From Bacillus sp. (in: firmicutes) (lineage in GTDB: Bacteria; Bacillota; Bacilli; Bacillales; Bacillaceae), in the NCBI GenBank assembly GCA_031180805.1, contig JAPSLL010000044.1:1-33098 (forward strand): a stretch of DNA of 33,098 bases, written 5' to 3'. Below the pieces are notes generated by a model. The model searched no databases. It worked only from the letters and a program-made list of their open reading frames with translations, and was not told the origin of the DNA. Every line of letters begins with the position of its first letter. The first letter of the stretch is position 1. The position numbers were made by a program, and so were the translations under genes. Positions 1,712-12,117 of this stretch are shown here, piece after piece.

Positions 1712-1846
1712 AGTTGGTTAGGAAATGATCAATTGCTTAACAACAGCTTAGCGTTTAGCTCCTCCCAGGTCACATATTTGTGTTTTGTTTGTCAAAGCTA
1801 TTCAAGACGCATACGCTTTAGTCTGTTTAAAAGAAGGGAAAATAAA

Positions 1847-3157
1847 ATGAAGAAAATCGATACTGTTTTAATTGGACTTATGTTATTTTCAATGTTTTTT
1901 GGTGCGGGTAATCTTATTTTTCCGCCTTTTCTAGGATTGCAGTCTGGTACATCGTTTTGGGCTGCAATGATTGGTTTTATCGTAACGGGTGTCGGGCTTC
2001 CGTTTGCAGTATTGTTTGCAATATCGCTAGTAAAGGGTGGAGTTCAAGCAATTGGAGACAGAGTCCATCCTGTTTTTAGCACGTCATTTATGGTCATCAT
2101 TTATTTATGTATTGGTCCATTTTTAGCAATTCCACGTAATGCAAATGTGGCATATGAAATGGGGATTAAGCCTTTTTTAAGTGAGACTGCTCATTCGCCG
2201 ATTAGTTTGTTTTTGTTTACGCTCGTTTTCTTTGCACTCGTTTATTTTGTTAGTTTAAATCCAGAGAAAATGGAAAAGTATATGAGTCGCTGGATAACAC
2301 CAGTATTACTGATCTCAATGGTTATTTTATGTGTTGTCGGCTTTGTCAAGCTTGATGATGGGTTCCAAGCACCATCCACTGCTTATTCATCTGGAGCTTT
2401 TTCAAAGGGATTTATTGAGGGATATAATACAATGGATGCCCTTGCTGCTCTCGCATTTGGGATTGTTATTTTGACATCAATCCAAAAAAGAGGAGTGTCA
2501 GACCGAAAGCAACTAACAAACTATATGATAAAGGCAAGCCTGATTGCAGGTGGATTATTGTCGCTTGTTTATATTAGTTTAGGTGTGATTGGAGCAAGAA
2601 TGGCTCAAGTAGGGTCATATGAAAATGGAACAGATATTTTATCGTCTGCAGCAACGCTTTTATTAGGACAAGGTGGAAAGACATTACTAGGAATTATCTT
2701 TACGCTTGCGTGCTTTACAACAGTTGTCGGGTTAACGACTGCATGTGGTCAATATTTTTCAAATCTTATGTCAAAGGTTAGCTATAAAACGGTTGTCCGT
2801 TCAGTTACTTTAGTAGGATTGATTCTTTCAAATTTAGGTTTAAATCAAATTTTGAAAATTTCCGTGCCCTTCTTAGTTACGGCATATCCTTTAACAATTG
2901 TTCTAATTGCCTTAACGTTTTTTCATCGGTATTTTAAACATCCGCGAAAGGTATATGCGACGACAATTTTATTTACAGCAATTTTTGCGATAATAGGTGG
3001 ATTGAATGCCTTTGGATTGAATCTCGGTGTCCTGCAAGTCATGATTGGATATTTACCATTCGCTACGTACGGGTTGGAATGGATTGCGCCTGCGTTAGTA
3101 GGTTTGCTTCTTGGGCTAGTCTTAAGTCAATTTAGTAAAGTAGCAAAAAAAGCATAG
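1847..3157 (+). CDS. brnQ: Branched-chain amino acid carrier BrnQ (LIVCS family)
   Basis: A 436-residue polytopic membrane protein, the usual length for the family, with about twelve hydrophobic segments. The N-terminus, MKKIDTVLIGLMLFSMFFGA followed by GNLIFPP, is the strongly conserved first transmembrane segment of cation-coupled leucine/isoleucine/valine carriers. The frame is open back to 1733, but the ATG at 1847 has an AAGAAGGG site 6 nt before it and gives the family N-terminus; the upstream part encodes no recognisable protein. It lies 135 nt downstream of a T-box terminator, so expression should rise when a cognate tRNA is uncharged. It forms a single-gene unit closed by a terminator at 3202-3235. 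Confidence 0.92.
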   Translation: MKKIDTVLIGLMLFSMFFGAGNLIFPPFLGLQSGTSFWAAMIGFIVTGVGLPFAVLFAISLVKGGVQAIGDRVHPVFSTSFMVIIYLCIGPFLAIPRNANVAYEMGIKPFLSETAHSPISLFLFTLVFFALVYFVSLNPEKMEKYMSRWITPVLLISMVILCVVGFVKLDDGFQAPSTAYSSGAFSKGFIEGYNTMDALAALAFGIVILTSIQKRGVSDRKQLTNYMIKASLIAGGLLSLVYISLGVIGARMAQVGSYENGTDILSSAATLLLGQGGKTLLGIIFTLACFTTVVGLTTACGQYFSNLMSKVSYKTVVRSVTLVGLILSNLGLNQILKISVPFLVTAYPLTIVLIALTFFHRYFKHPRKVYATTILFTAIFAIIGGLNAFGLNLGVLQVMIGYLPFATYGLEWIAPALVGLLLGLVLSQFSKVAKKA

Positions 3158-3201
3158 GTTAGGTTGATAAAAATAACGTTCTTAATTGTATAAAAAGAAA
3201 T

Positions 3202-3235
3202 GAAACTCTCCTGTAATGGATGAGTTTCTTTTTTT
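3202..3235 (+). terminator. Rho-independent terminator after brnQ
   Basis: GAAACTC (3202-3208) pairs with GAGTTTC (3222-3228) around a 13-nt loop and is followed by a run of seven T. Confidence 0.8.
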
Positions 3236-3389
3236 GTCTTCTGGAATAAAATCGCGAATAGTTATCGAAATAAAATACTTCATAATGGATATTCTTCTAA
3301 AATGTGAATGGATATATATGTTAATATAGAATGATGAGAAAATTGGTAAGAAGAAAGAATTGATAGAAGTTAGTAATTGAGGTGTTTTA

Positions 3390-5012
3390 GTGGAGAGTAA
3401 ATTTATAAGAGGAACTTTCTTTTTAACAGCAGCAAGCCTAATATCTAAGATTTTGGGCTTCATTTATATTATTCCGTTCACGGCCTTAGTAGGGACACAA
3501 GGATATGCGTTGTATAAATATGCTTACGGTCCTTATACAATTTTGTTAAGTATTTCAACAATAGGTCTTCCACTTGCTGTTTCCAAATTTGTTTCGAAAT
3601 ATAATGAATTAGGTAATTATAGAGTTGGTTTAACTCTATTAAGATATGGAATGTATTTGATGCTTATAAGCGGTATTATCTCATTTACTGCTTTGTATTT
3701 AATGGCACCATTTCTAGCAGAAATATTAATAGACGCAAATGATCCAACAGGTAATTCGGTAGAGGATGTTCAATTTGTTATTCGTCTCGTCAGCTATGCT
3801 TTGTTAGTAATTCCAGTAATGAGTATTTTCAGGGGATACTTCCAAGGGAGCCAATCTATGGGCCCTTCTGCATTAAGTACAGTGATAGAGCAGGTAGTAA
3901 GGATTGTCTTTATCTTGGTAGGTGGATATGTAGCGATAAACTTTTTAGATAGCTCGCTAACAAATGCTGTCGGGATTGCAACCTTTGCTGCGTTTATTGG
4001 TGGAGTAGCGGGATTTGGTGTGTTATTAGTCGTTTTCTATAAACGAAGAAAATTAATAAAGAAACAAAGAGATATGAGTCTAAATAACGAAGACTTAAAC
4101 GTTCTTTCCATGTTTAAAGAATTGATTGGATATGCCATTCCCTTTGTTATTACAGGACTTACAATACCGATATATCAGAACATTGATACCTTTACGATTA
4201 ATGAATTGTTTCGGTCGATAGGTTACAAGCTAGATGAAGCAGAGACAATTAATTCAGTTATTGGCTTAGCGCAAATTCTCGTTATGGTTCCAGTTTCATT
4301 GGCAACAGCATTCGGTATGTCTTTAATACCAGGCATCACTTCAGCCTTTACTAGTGGAAGAGTGCAAGAAGTTCAAAGTAAGATAACTCAAACTATGCAA
4401 ATTCTAGTATTCTTTACTCTGCCAGCTGCAATGGGCCTATGTATTCTAGGAAAGCCAATTTATACGATGGTGTTTGGATTAGAAAACAGTCCTGAGTTAG
4501 GTGGGGGTATTTTACAATGGTACTCATTAGGTGCCGTTATTTTTGCATTGTTTACAGTAACAGCTGCCATTATGCAAGGGATAAACGAGCAAAAGAAATT
4601 AATCCTAGGAATTATTTTTGGGATTATTTTAAAGATAGCTTTCAACTTTCTACTCGTACAATATATAGGGGAAATCGGTCCAATTTTAGCTACATACATT
4701 GGGTTTATCGTCTCAATTCTATTTAACACAGTCTTCATTAAGAATAAACTCCAATACAAGGTATTGCCATTACTTCAAACATTAAAGGAAGTTTTCTTGT
4801 TAGTTTTGGTCATGTCTATCGCTGTTTGGATTGTGAAGTTTTTAACAGAGCTATGGCTACTTGAAGCTCTAGGCTTATATTCGAGATCATTTCTTACCTC
4901 AATCATTTCCATTTGTGCAGGGGTGTTCGTTTATTTAGGTATAGGATCAAGGCTAAAGATAGTAAAAGGATTATCATTGATAAAGAAACGAAATAAAAAT
5001 TCAAAAGGCTAG
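3390..5012 (+). CDS. ytgP: Putative lipid II/polysaccharide flippase, YtgP (MurJ)/SpoVB family
   Basis: A 540-residue protein with about 14 membrane segments, belonging to the MOP (MATE-like) superfamily. It starts SKFIRGTFFLTAASLISKIL with GFIYIIPF next, and contains IGLPLAVSKFVSKYNE and FRGYFQGSQSMGP, all hallmark regions of YtgP/SpoVB proteins that move lipid-linked cell-wall precursors outward. Length and these motifs fit YtgP (B. subtilis MurJ) better than SpoVB, though the two are hard to separate without a tree. The start is GTG at 3390 with GAGGTG 5 nt upstream. It stands alone between terminators. Residues about 215-240 form a basic cytoplasmic loop (KRRKLIKKQR). Confidence 0.78.
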   Translation: MESKFIRGTFFLTAASLISKILGFIYIIPFTALVGTQGYALYKYAYGPYTILLSISTIGLPLAVSKFVSKYNELGNYRVGLTLLRYGMYLMLISGIISFTALYLMAPFLAEILIDANDPTGNSVEDVQFVIRLVSYALLVIPVMSIFRGYFQGSQSMGPSALSTVIEQVVRIVFILVGGYVAINFLDSSLTNAVGIATFAAFIGGVAGFGVLLVVFYKRRKLIKKQRDMSLNNEDLNVLSMFKELIGYAIPFVITGLTIPIYQNIDTFTINELFRSIGYKLDEAETINSVIGLAQILVMVPVSLATAFGMSLIPGITSAFTSGRVQEVQSKITQTMQILVFFTLPAAMGLCILGKPIYTMVFGLENSPELGGGILQWYSLGAVIFALFTVTAAIMQGINEQKKLILGIIFGIILKIAFNFLLVQYIGEIGPILATYIGFIVSILFNTVFIKNKLQYKVLPLLQTLKEVFLLVLVMSIAVWIVKFLTELWLLEALGLYSRSFLTSIISICAGVFVYLGIGSRLKIVKGLSLIKKRNKNSKG

Positions 5013-5064
5013 TGAACACTCATAATTGCCCTTTTATTCGAAAAAACGGGCTAAAACTAGTAAC

Positions 5065-5098
5065 AAAGGGACATCCTTTAGCGGATGCTCCCTTTTTT
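5065..5098 (+). terminator. Rho-independent terminator after the flippase gene
   Basis: AAAGGGACATCC pairs with GGATGCTCCCTT across a TTTAGC loop, with a C/GC internal mismatch, and ends in a run of T. Confidence 0.8.
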
Positions 5099-5157
5099 AG
5101 TATGAAACCAAAAATAATTGATATTTAAATTTTATTCATTTTCAACAAAATAAGACA

Positions 5158-5219
5158 TTGAACAAAAAATCATGCTGGTATATAATGTGATCAAAGTTAG
5201 TTAACCGTTTAACCGGAGG
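5158..5219 (+). promoter_or_regulatory. Promoter and operator of the LacI-family gene
   Basis: TTGAAC (5158-5163), a 17-nt spacer and a perfect TATAAT (5181-5186) put the start of transcription near 5193. Just downstream lies TTAACCGTTTAA (5201-5212), one base from the perfect palindrome TTAACCGGTTAA, then the GGAGG ribosome site (5215-5219). A repressor bound there would sit on the first transcribed bases, which indicates autoregulation. Confidence 0.75.
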
Positions 5220-5223
5220 AAAT

Positions 5224-6249
5224 ATGAACGCAAAAATAACAATTAAAGATGTAGCTAAATATGCTGGCGTTTCTTCAGCAACTGTATCCTATGTCCTTAA
5301 TGGGGTTAATAAGGTATCAGATGAAACGAGAGAAAGAGTTTTATCAGCTATTGAGCAATTAAATTATCAGCCAGACTTTACTGCGATTAGTCTTTCGAAA
5401 AGAGAATCAAAAATGATCGGCGTCATTATGCCTTTGGTCGGTGATTCACTTGCACCGCTTTTTAAAGAAAATCATTATATTAGCGAGCTACTGAGTGGTG
5501 TCGAATATATGTGCAGGAAAAAGGGATATGATTTTCTCATATCGGGTATTTCAAAGGCTGAGGAATGCAAGACATGGGTAATGAAGCGTAATCTTGATGC
5601 AGTCATTGTACTCGGGAAGTTTCCGAAAAAAGTTTTCGATGAAATGAAAGCGTTGTCTACCCCACTCGTTTTTGTTGACTCGTTTGAACAGGATTTGGAT
5701 TCATTTCATAATATACGGATTGATGATGAGCATGGTGGCTATTTAGGTACGAAGCATTTAATCGAATTAGGACATCGGAAAATATGCTTCATCTCAAATG
5801 GCAGAGTGGACTCTGATGTTGATGGGCAACGATATCAAGGATTTAAGAGAGCATTAAAGGAAGCGAACATCGAATTAAATGAAGACATGGTCATGGAGGG
5901 AAGAATTAATTCATTTGAAAGCGGTTATAAGATAGGCGGAGAGATTGCAAAGGATAAGAGAATGACAGCTTTTTTTACTTCATCAGATATTACGGCACTA
6001 GGCATCATTAAATCTCTTACCGATTTAGGAATAAGCGTACCAGATGATTTTTCGATTGTCGGTTTTGATGACTTAATGGTTAGCCGTTATTCGTCACCAA
6101 GCTTAACAACTATCCGCCAAGATGTATTCCGTAAAGGAGCGGTCGCAGCAGAGACAGCGATAGATGTTATTGAAGATAAGAAGGGGATTCCGAAGCTTAC
6201 AGTGCTACCTGTTGAGATAGTTGTACGGAAAAGCACAAAGGCGATTTAA
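5224..6249 (+). CDS. LacI/GalR-family transcriptional regulator
   Basis: A 341-residue protein of typical length. Residues 5-24 form the LacI helix-turn-helix (TIKDVAKYAGVSSATVSYVL), followed by the hinge (NYQPDFTAISLSKRES) and a periplasmic-binding-protein-like sugar domain (residues about 60-335). The latter ends in the usual dimer and ligand motifs (PDDFSIVGFDDL, SPSLTTIRQD). Start ATG with GGAGG 4 nt upstream. It precedes the ThuA/Gfo/isomerase operon on the same strand, and near-identical operator cores lie before both units, so it most likely represses itself and the operon until a carbohydrate signal binds. Effector unknown; no CcpA-type site was seen nearby. Confidence 0.9.
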   Translation: MNAKITIKDVAKYAGVSSATVSYVLNGVNKVSDETRERVLSAIEQLNYQPDFTAISLSKRESKMIGVIMPLVGDSLAPLFKENHYISELLSGVEYMCRKKGYDFLISGISKAEECKTWVMKRNLDAVIVLGKFPKKVFDEMKALSTPLVFVDSFEQDLDSFHNIRIDDEHGGYLGTKHLIELGHRKICFISNGRVDSDVDGQRYQGFKRALKEANIELNEDMVMEGRINSFESGYKIGGEIAKDKRMTAFFTSSDITALGIIKSLTDLGISVPDDFSIVGFDDLMVSRYSSPSLTTIRQDVFRKGAVAAETAIDVIEDKKGIPKLTVLPVEIVVRKSTKAI

Positions 6250-6290
6250 GGAGGTGATTTTAAGCAAATAAGCAGGAAACGTAGCGAATG

Positions 6291-6302
6291 TTAACCGGTT
6301 CA
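6291..6302 (+). promoter_or_regulatory. Second LacI-type operator, ahead of the sugar operon
   Basis: TTAACCGGTTCA (6291-6302) is one mismatch from the same palindrome TTAACCGGTTAA as the site at 5201-5212, with the central CG typical of LacI-family operators. It lies in the 273-nt gap 6250-6522. I found no convincing sigma-A promoter in that gap, so read-through from the regulator or a weak promoter is possible. A small hairpin GAGC-CAA-GCTC (6437-6447) is also there. Confidence 0.65.
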
Positions 6303-6522
6303 CTAAATAGATAAATATTGTTCTAACAAACTGGTCACAGATCATATGATGAAAAAGAATTTATAAACTAAGATTGTCCGAATGACATCGAGTCATTCAA
6401 AATCAATGATAAAGCAATCAACAAAGGGAATGGGAGAGCCAAGCTCACGGAGGACAAGATTTCACTTTAGTAAATGTCATAGGTATCTCTTAAATAAACA
6501 AATAGATTAGGATGATGAAGAA

Positions 6523-7245
6523 ATGACAAGAGTTACAGTTTGGAACGAAAATAGACATGAACAGAAAAATCCAGTTGTCAGCGATATTTATCCAAAAGGA
6601 ATTCACGGTGCTATTGCTGATTTTTTACAAGAAGAAAATTACGAAGTGAAGACAGCTACTCTTGATGATCATGAGCATGGATTAACAGATGAGGTATTGC
6701 AAAATACAGATGTACTTGTTTGGTGGGGACATCTTGCGCATCACGAGGTTCAGGATGAAATCGTTTTAAAAGTGAAAGAGCGTGTCCTTGATGGAATGGG
6801 ACTTATTGTGCTACATTCAGGACATTTTTCAAAAATCTTTAAAGAGTTAATGGGTACGAGCTGTGATCTTAAATGGCGTGAAGCAGATGATAGAGAACGA
6901 ATTTGGGTCGTTGATCCGAGTCATCCGATTGCAGATGGAATTGGGGAATACATTGAGTTAGAGAAGGAGGAAATGTATGGCGAGCATTTCGATATTCCCG
7001 CTCCAGATGAACTAATCTTTACGAGCTGGTTTGAGGGTGGAGAGGTGTTTCGAAGTGGCTGTGTCTTTAAACGTGGTAACGGACGAATTTTCTATTTCCG
7101 TCCAGGTCATGAAACATATCCAACTTATCATAACGAGCAGGTTCAACAGGTTATAAAAAATGCAGTCGCTTATGTAAAGCCTGTATCTCGCAAGCGACCT
7201 GTTTACGGAAACGCAAAACCATTAGAAGCAATTTCTGAAAAATAA
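6523..7245 (+). CDS. ThuA-like (trehalose utilisation) domain protein
   Basis: A 240-residue cytoplasmic protein with the ThuA fold, a glutamine-amidotransferase-like alpha/beta sandwich lacking the catalytic cysteine. Visible features are the start [26 protein letters not shown] (residues about 64-76), [12 protein letters not shown] (93-104) and the C-terminal [18 protein letters not shown]. Family members accompany sugar oxidoreductases in disaccharide and glycoside catabolism (rhizobial ThuA/ThuB with trehalose), but their exact reaction is not settled. First gene of a four-gene operon; 33 nt separate it from the next gene. Its ribosome site (AGGATGATG) is weak compared with its neighbours. 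Confidence 0.82.
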
Positions 7246-11816: not shown

Positions 11817-12018
11817 TGCCTCTGACGGGATTCGAACCCGCACTCACAATCAATGATTGTTTAGCTTAGGCTAGGGGGAACACGCTTCCCTACGGAATTT
11901 CACCGACAGGAATTCCACCTGTCTCAGCTAATTGCTTTTCGGTGCTTCTGAAACCCTTGCCTTGCGACCCGGTTCTACAATGTTTTCCGGCGCTCTTCCC
12001 TTCTGGAGCTACAGAGGC
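11817..12018 (-). ncRNA. Structured RNA with tRNA-like acceptor, D and T arms and a large internal insertion
   Basis: On the minus strand the ends pair as a 7-bp acceptor: GCCTCTG (12018-12012) with CAGAGGC (11824-11818). Next comes TA, then a D-like arm GCTC/GAGC (12009-11992) with GG in its loop, and at the 3' end a canonical T arm GCGGG-TTCGAAT-CCCGT (11841-11825). In place of an anticodon arm there are about 150 nt with hairpins CCGG/CCGG, GACAGG/CCTGTC, GGGAA/TTCCC inside TTAGCT/AGCTAA, and ACAATC-ATT-GATTGT. No CCA is encoded. A perfect TATAAT at 12033-12028 would start transcription about 3 nt before the acceptor. It lacks tmRNA tag codons and group I intron core sequences. Function unknown. 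Confidence 0.75.
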
Positions 12019-12027
12019 GTTTCTAAT

Positions 12028-12033
12028 ATTATA
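12028..12033 (-). promoter_or_regulatory. -10 element for the tRNA-like RNA
   Basis: TATAAT read on the minus strand, 9 nt before the first acceptor base. There is no good -35 hexamer at 17 nt (TACTCA is the nearest), so the promoter may depend on an activator or another sigma factor, or be weak. Confidence 0.5.
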
Positions 12034-12076: not shown

Positions 12077-12117
12077 GCTGATGTTTGACAGCTTTGTTTG
12101 GCATCAGCCTTTCTTTT
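12077..12117 (+). terminator. Hairpin with T-rich tail, likely plus-strand terminator
   Basis: GCTGATG (12077-12083) pairs with CATCAGC (12102-12108), followed by CTTTCTTTT. It points on the plus strand, so its only candidate client is the methyltransferase gene ending at 11813; that transcript would run antisense through the tRNA-like RNA. It could also close the minus-strand gene at 12125-12355, but there no T run follows. Confidence 0.5.

Follow-up and report, generated by a model that had tools for sequence, protein, structure and literature searches.

An apparently new family of tRNA-like RNAs with a structured core from Bacillales and large phages

Known tRNA-domain RNAs and the RNA of the window

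To our knowledge, only few bacterial RNAs contain a tRNA domain, i.e. tmRNA, which acts in ribosome rescue, and YrlA, which serves Ro60; the latter RNA is reportedly the subject of work by Chen et al. 2014. The idea has been raised that the tRNA-like domain of YrlA may inhibit an anticodon nuclease (PMC7790460), and abundant phage ncRNAs near an Rsr-like gene of a Listeria phage have been suggested to be Y RNAs (PMC12282133); the portions of both articles that were covered do not describe the RNA family reported here. A description of the family was also not found in the portions covered of the open PMC literature and of PMC8632094, by which an unpublished status is not proven.

The RNA under study is located on the minus strand at 11817..12018 of the window (the whole 33,098-base stretch of DNA that was analyzed), has a length of 202 nt (G1 at 12018, discriminator A at 11817) and is a single copy in its genome. 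No Rfam family matched at its gathering threshold in the window, i.e., the newness considered in the sequence-only reading of this DNA survived the comparison; at E up to 10, the region of the RNA gave seven matches, all far under the gathering scores, and the only tRNA-related one linked the T-arm hairpin (15 nt) with tmRNA (12.4 bits versus a gathering score of 47). ARAGORN called neither a tRNA nor a tmRNA in the window; at the loci L016, L133 and L218, the RNA itself yielded only weak, sub-gathering matches of the T arm to tRNA or tmRNA in addition to chance matches. Among the assignments that had been offered at the outset, those to a tRNA mimic and to a new class have therefore held, whereas a relationship of the window RNA to a known large ncRNA is not supported. 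That the RNA and its family are real is close to certain, and the family is very probably new.

Structure of the RNA and its conservation

The tRNA-like parts that had been read from the letters are all present on the minus strand: the acceptor is formed by GCCTCTG (12012..12018) and CAGAGGC (11818..11824) and is followed by the discriminator without CCA, the TA linker corresponds to U8 and A9 (12011-12010), the D arm GCTC-CAGAAGGGAA-GAGC covers 11992..12009, and the T arm GCGGG-TTCGAAT-CCCGT covers 11825..11841. The position of the anticodon arm is occupied by P1 (11969..11990), a 4-bp stem (CCGG/CCGG) with the 14-nt loop AAAACATTGTAGAA; an anticodon arm with a 7-nt loop was found in none of 63 aligned sequences, which have the 4-bp stem and a loop of 12-17 nt. 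The claim that a core replaces the anticodon arm thus stands as far as the insert is concerned (114-127 nt between P1 and the T stem in the Bacillales sequences, the whole RNA measuring 189-202 nt), but not as a plain absence of the arm, since a covarying stem is found there. The core comprises P2 with its 5' strand AGGC-A-AGGG (11954..11962) and 3' strand CCCT-A-GCCT (11868..11876); the conserved core motif GGTTTCAGAAGCACCGAA (11938..11955), which is common to the phage RNAs (e.g. GGTTGCGGATGCACCGAA), GCACCGAA having been a part of the search pattern that recovered most of them; the P3 hairpin (11905..11923), the 7-nt loop of which (TGGAATT; family TGNAANT) appears T-loop-like as judged from its letters; and the nearly invariant segment TCCGTAGGGAAGCGTGTTC (11878..11896), which differs slightly in L132 and L141. 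The letters GTAGGGAAGCG..GTT or near variants are present in all subtypes. A pseudoknot is proposed between AAGCG (11883..11887) and AGCTA (11862..11866; TGCTT in most relatives), two of the five pairs of which fail to form in the window's own copy. The variable-arm hairpin ACAATC-ATT-GATTGT is located at 11846..11860 and carries a GNRA-like cap in most relatives.

Upstream of the acceptor, the -10-like promoter element TATAAT (12028..12033, minus strand) ends 9 nt before G1, in agreement with the earlier reading. Perfect TATAAT 3-25 nt 5' of G1 was present in 37 of 62 relatives (6.4% of shuffles), and a combined -35/-10 score of at least 10 in 23 of 62 (2.1% of shuffles). Terminator-like hairpins up to 60 nt downstream were present in few copies (12 of 63 versus 2 of 63 shuffled), so that the 3' end of most copies probably derives from processing. 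A further hairpin, GCTGATG/CATCAGC, lies upstream of the RNA on the minus strand (12077-12108); no T run follows it, and its loop is shorter in M. niabensis.

The Bacillales alignment A1 included 63 of the 70 distinct full copies. The seven excluded rows were L023 (3' end taken by a prophage), the degenerate L021, and L022, L044, L055, L063 and L095, in which an internal deletion has removed about 16 nt between two GGTGAAA repeats; one T-loop-like hairpin is gone in these copies, the remainder being largely intact. As the folding energy was only mildly unusual (z -1.94; 8 of 200 shuffles equally good), the case for the structure stands on comparison. Standard pairs were formed in 99.0% of the pair cells of the 63 sequences, and 14 of the 47 pairs (78 cells) were changed on both sides, values that none of 500 shuffles matched; pairing fell to 32-48% when the partners were slid by 1-3 columns. 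In the acceptor, 100% of the cells were paired and columns 4-7 were all compensatory. An unsupervised mutual-information ranking placed proposed pairs first (top six: 68-155, 104-121, 170-184, 4-209, 33-52 and 6-207): the P2 pair 68-155 exhibited 13 both-side changes and the top covariation of all column pairs, the P3 pair 104-121 had 22 both-side changes, and the closing pair of the variable arm (170-184) alternates between CG, GC and AT, with both-side changes in 10 sequences; three of the four P1 pairs also revealed both-side changes. In consequence, acceptor, P1, P2, P3 and the variable-arm hairpin are backed by covariation. The D arm (97.2% of cells paired) and the T arm (99.0%) showed no both-side change in Bacillales. 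The CACC/GGUG and AGC/GCU pairings and the AAGC/GCUU pseudoknot hardly vary (the pseudoknot was paired in 97.5% of cells with no compensatory change) and are regarded as unproven; an alternative structure lacking CACC/GGUG and the pseudoknot performs equally well.

Letters of importance in tRNA (U8, A14, R15, GG, A21 and TTCGAAT) are kept in the A1 columns; as the discriminator, 46 of the 63 sequences have A and 17 have U. The absence of an encoded CCA and of a tmRNA-like tag frame, both claimed in the sequence-only reading, was borne out: CCA is encoded neither in the window RNA nor in any of the 63 A1 relatives, though some distant relatives do encode it, and stop codons were present in 61, 63 and 63 of the 63 sequences by frame, with no open frame common to all of them and sequence lengths that fall into all three residue classes modulo 3. 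An antisense frame recurs in nine loci (L011, L016, L023, L028, L065, L082, L084, L086 and L095; e.g. PDGIRTR in L086), which we take to be a by-product of the RNA letters and not a protein. Eighteen consecutive columns (131-148) were invariant across the 63 Bacillales sequences; 55 of these were recovered by an exact pattern within the nearly invariant 3' core segment, so that copies differing there are under-sampled and the invariance is partly built in. The eight rows recovered by other routes carry the identical 18 letters.

The phage RNAs provided an independent test. Alignment A4 consisted of ten compact phage RNAs (eight as well as those of phages Kela and Alone3, the latter two rows with some end bases missing) and contained no Bacillales sequence. 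In A4, 18 of 37 pairs were changed on both sides; no shuffle out of 500 equaled this count, the pairing or the covariation score, whereas the number of pair types was reached by 16 of 500. All four P1 pairs and four of the five T-arm pairs covary in the phage RNAs; in the comparison for compensatory changes that the earlier reading had suggested, acceptor and core pairings thus were kept in Bacillales and the T arm covaries among the phage relatives. The covariance model derived from A4 (R2) matched the window RNA at exactly 11817-12018 on the minus strand with 75.5 bits over model positions 1-155 of 155 (E 1.2e-16, E-values of R2 and of the Bacillales model R1 being rough by the tool's own statement). 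Further R2 scores were 79.9 (L016), 85.4 (L132), 68.0 (L133), 56.1 (L134) and 80.6 bits (L218), 84.0-86.4 bits for four Bacillales plasmid copies and 44.9-80.1 bits for the nine longer phage RNAs, i.e. 44.9-80.6 bits for the test set of ten phage RNAs outside A4; in L235, L236, L239 and L240 the match begins inside the RNA. Because R2 contains the tRNA-like ends, these scores have to be set against plain tRNAs, which reached up to 39.1 bits with R2 and up to 32.4 bits with R1 (tRNA-Leu, L131). In 18 other loci, R2 found nothing at E 1e-6.

Occurrence in Bacillales, plasmids and large phages

Among 60 genomes related to that of the window, 14 matched (own genome included), 12 of them with a full-length or nearly full-length copy. 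A scan of genome contigs with the 18-letter core motif gave 75 stretches, 10 without and 65 with the RNA or a part of it, the latter all from Bacillales according to their titles as read. R1, the covariance model built from the 63 distinct Bacillales copies, exceeded 60 bits in 37 of 397 genomes of the order; only matches above this value were counted, which still include the partly decayed L136 and L137. The other matches reached at most 34 bits, and those inspected were tRNAs or remnants; the weak matches in L151, L153 and L155 proved to be ordinary tRNAs. Matches of R1 are rare beyond the order: at an equally rough E of 1e-6, it matched 11 of 398 genomes of a class sample and 5 of 398 of a phylum sample, each including the own genome and order members, and a plain tRNA-Leu accounts for one of the five. 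Plasmids carried the RNA in 17 of 72,556 records (Listeria 8, Cytobacillus 5, Peribacillus 2, and also Priestia and Bacillus); none of the 17 records listed a feature under the RNA, the gene table of this collection being incomplete.

The neighboring proteins vary from locus to locus, and clustering of the open reading frames of 70 loci revealed no recurring protein neighbor beyond closely related loci. The site in the window adjoins an rlmI-like gene (named by our own reading), where M. niabensis has the same RNA. By eye, only the decayed last ~80 nt are left at this site in another Metabacillus genome, a more decayed trace is present in one further genome and none is visible in two; five more genomes of the genus carry the RNA at other sites. 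The RNA behaves as an accessory gene that is gained and lost. In L041 (2646-2719), L071 (2304-2376) and L079 (2173-2246), a ~74-nt 3'-terminal fragment is located about 2 kb upstream of the full copy on the same strand; these fragments are perhaps decayed duplicates. In L099, a prophage contig matching Siminovitchia fordii, the RNA (3498-3694) is flanked by genes at 3042-3497 and 3809-4486; the latter starts with MCGRFTL, is an SOS-response-associated peptidase gene by our own reading, and has a similar counterpart near the RNA in L160.

On plasmid pCFSAN008100 (L023, 8195 onward), the last acceptor bases of the RNA are joined to a PSA-like prophage of Listeria, just as prophage junctions are found at the 3' end of tRNA genes; related plasmids with the same left flank (L016) contain the RNA without the prophage. 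A PSA-like prophage is apparently present at the RNA 3' end of the IMG/VR contig L100 as well. In the PSA record, the corresponding position is annotated as a tRNA-Arg gene; tRNA-Arg is the site used by this phage.

Outside the order, the Bacillales-only R1 gave 90.2 bits for L133, which belongs to a genome of another order. The element that harbors the RNA has at its edge a serine recombinase and a comM-like gene (names by our own reading); the RNA follows directly after tRNA-Glu, tRNA-Ile(UAU) and tRNA-Trp, and has its CCA encoded, as has L132. The tRNA-Ile of this array (1798-1893, minus strand; anticodon UAU) measures 96 nt and has a long variable region.

A blastn search with the window RNA gave no match in 50,697 phage records, and the phage relatives surfaced only through short conserved motifs. 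IMG/VR yielded a 423,825-base phage contig (L215/L218) and, on contigs of 10,479-512,571 bases, 19 additional loci; after removal of two duplicates, 18 of the 20 RNAs were distinct, with lengths of 152-243 nt. CACCGAA and AGGGAAGC, which were partly the search basis, are spaced by 17-22 nt in 18 of 18. Acceptors were completely paired (7/7) in 16 RNAs and 6/7 in two, the 5' end having been picked for best pairing (two by hand), and the T stem had 5/5 pairs in 17 of 18, where the pattern behind most members ends in T-arm letters. CCA follows three of the 18 (L235, L240 and L248); the discriminator is A, G or C. Each of the 19 newly fetched loci (two pairs of which share one RNA) contained tRNA genes, 2 to 29 in number. 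For the 423,825-base contig, the score of L215 with R1 (26.3 bits) was no better than that of plain tRNAs, and a core-only letter alignment of L218 against types I and II, reached by 1-8 of 1000 shuffles, is weak alone; L218 also has two extra 8-mers, which occurred together in none of 200,000 shuffles, and these, along with its 80.6 bits with R2, settle its membership. The matches in L213, L214 and L216 were tRNA-Leu and are not members. Among the 50,697 records, 23 matched one query and 13 another in overlapping sets of named Streptomyces phages; in two records of the first set and one of the second, a "hypothetical protein" is annotated at the place of the RNA, and the remaining 21 and 12 have no feature there. 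The third query, L240, matched one phage record.

Possible role, rival explanations and comparison with known systems

The family unites acceptor, D and T arms in normal order with a conserved structured core and with an open-looped stem in place of the anticodon stem; homologues are present in tRNA arrays of large phages, in an integrated element, on plasmids and in Bacillales chromosomes, and TATAAT precedes most Bacillales copies. The R2 match and the phage tRNA arrays point to tRNA mimics that are not permuted and constitute a new family, one that is apparently carried by phages and has been captured by Bacillales. We consider it about an even chance (roughly 50%) that the window RNA is an untranslated tRNA mimic of an undescribed phage-associated family which serves mobile elements by way of tRNA-acting enzymes. 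The RNA would be made and trimmed like a tRNA, with RNase P forming the 5' end and either RNase Z or the addition of CCA the 3' end, with which the CCA encoded in L132, L133 and three of 18 phage RNAs is in accordance. A tRNA-cleaving, -repairing or -decaying enzyme might bind the tRNA-like body, and the core could block or tether the bound enzyme and thereby protect the translation of the mobile element; Bacillales would have captured the gene as a stand-alone accessory gene. A decoy or tether for tRNA-acting enzymes is the likeliest form of such a role, the balance tilting slightly against it. The same reserve applies to the wider proposal of phage-encoded, unpermuted tRNA mimics across bacterial phyla that would join tmRNA and YrlA as a further bacterial tRNA-domain RNA, lie largely without annotation in phage tRNA arrays, act as decoys or tethers against tRNA-cleaving defense or in tRNA repair or decay and were domesticated as a stand-alone gene by Bacillales and their plasmids, to which we give a little less than even odds. 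In phage Comrade, RNA ligase and polynucleotide kinase genes are located 2.4-4.3 kb downstream of the RNA. A tRNA array would, however, keep any RNA with tRNA-like processing, i.e., this context is no proof of role, and having no anticodon loop to be cut, the RNA would have to compete by its elbow or acceptor.

A partnership with Ro60 (Rsr) in the manner of Y RNAs, in which the RNA would tether the Ro ring to a nuclease or aid tRNA quality control and the Bacillales copies would use another RNA-binding protein, is suggested by two phage loci. In the jumbo-phage locus L218 (minus strand; 2333-4514 and 4929-6863), tRNA-Ala, tRNA-Arg and tRNA-Met are followed in this order by a YrlA match (50.4 bits versus a gathering score of 69), another YrlA-like piece of 24.1 bits, the family RNA and a TROVE gene, the YrlA matches being beside the family RNA and not on it; the TROVE match (16.7 bits) is under the 23-bit cut-off, the von Willebrand-like part was assigned by our own reading, and the protein has 47% identity to a TROVE-annotated protein of Myxococcus phage Mx1. 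In phage Alone3, a Ro-like gene is located 2.9 kb downstream of the RNA in the same tRNA array. Against this, none of 60 genomes related to that of the window contains TROVE, and neither R1 nor R2 located a family member up to ~3 kb from Ro in 12 other Ro-phage loci, chosen among the matches listed (60 of 164 records), by which Ro60 was rejected as a general partner; in addition, the window region, L016 and L133 gave no YrlA (RF02553) match at E up to 10, and YrlA is permuted, in contrast to the window family. This explanation is thus judged unlikely. For phage Kela, the 10 kb inspected contain no annotated Ro gene. A tRNA array that adjoins a Ro-like gene is present in Gordonia phage GMA2 (L224), where it includes a tmRNA together with matches to the Pistol ribozyme and to tRNA-Sec, the last annotated as tRNA-Ser (4695-5106, 5416-5472 and 7091-7175).

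If instead the core (GCACCGAA ... GUAGGGAAGCG.GUU and the T-loop-like hairpins) were the working part of a catalytic or ligand-sensing RNA, the ends of which merely mature or stabilize it, the stricter conservation of core letters than of helices (18 invariant columns, partly a product of the search) and the motifs that 18 phage RNAs share, 17-22 nt apart, would be accounted for, and pairs of T-loops are found in RNAs that contact the tRNA elbow; yet no known ribozyme or riboswitch family matches, and the acceptor, not the core alone, is under compensatory change, so that we regard this as rather doubtful. Entry into the ribosome as a tRNA mimic, for tmRNA-like rescue or for inhibition, would agree with the tRNA-like acceptor, the elbow letters, the CCA of some relatives and the tmRNA genes at two of the 19 IMG/VR loci and in Comrade (2.7 kb upstream of the RNA), but is improbable given the missing tag frame and a discriminator which varies (A/U in Bacillales; A, G and C in phages) and thus indicates no fixed aminoacylation identity. 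A selfish integration (att) site that mimics a tRNA gene and is kept for its DNA might be read from the PSA-like prophage at the RNA 3' end on pCFSAN008100 and apparently L100; it is very improbable, as the compensatory pair changes show selection on the RNA fold, TATAAT is found in 37 of 62 relatives and no integrase is adjacent at most loci inspected. A broken tRNA gene with the remnant of a group I or group II intron is hardly conceivable: CCGAAAAGC..GCTGA resembles domain I of the Ll.LtrB group II intron, whereas R1 with filters off gave a best E of 0.59 on two Ll.LtrB-type introns, no Rfam intron matched at E up to 10 (in accordance with the group I core found lacking at the outset), removal of the core leaves no normal anticodon loop, and the entire RNA is conserved across phages. 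By eye, no reverse transcriptase was seen beside the window RNA. A group II-related motif search matched 43 of 299 genomes; about half of the 45 places are the family RNA by their letters.

A further tRNA-domain family with normal topology, strong covariation, a highly conserved core and a place in phage tRNA arrays would pose the question why phages carry tRNA mimics, which can be tested in laboratory Streptomyces phages; if the RNA indeed counters tRNA-cleaving defenses, it would represent RNA-only anti-defense. The analysis also points out a gene that is missing from the annotation of sequenced Streptomyces phages as well as of plasmids from Listeria and Bacillales.

Compared with the known systems, the likeness to domain I of the Ll.LtrB group II intron is restricted to short letter runs in the core (E 0.59-0.63). 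The family shares with tmRNA (RF00023) the tRNA-like ends around a large structured insert and differs from it by its paired D arm, the anticodon-stem substitute, the lack of a reading frame and a length of 152-243 nt. The alanine acceptor identity of tmRNA is G3-U70; in 63 of 63 A1 sequences this position is C3-G70, i.e., the tmRNA alanine identity is not present. With tRNA (RF00005) it has in common the acceptor, the UA linker, the D and T arms and their invariant letters, in contrast to which it has no anticodon and, in Bacillales, 114-127 nt inserted before the T arm. YrlA (RF02553) is likewise non-coding, carried by phages and equipped with tRNA-like acceptor, D and T arms, which according to the model consensus are permuted (T arm, acceptor hairpin and D arm within the Y stem); unlike in YrlA, the ends of the window family RNA form the acceptor stem as in tRNA.
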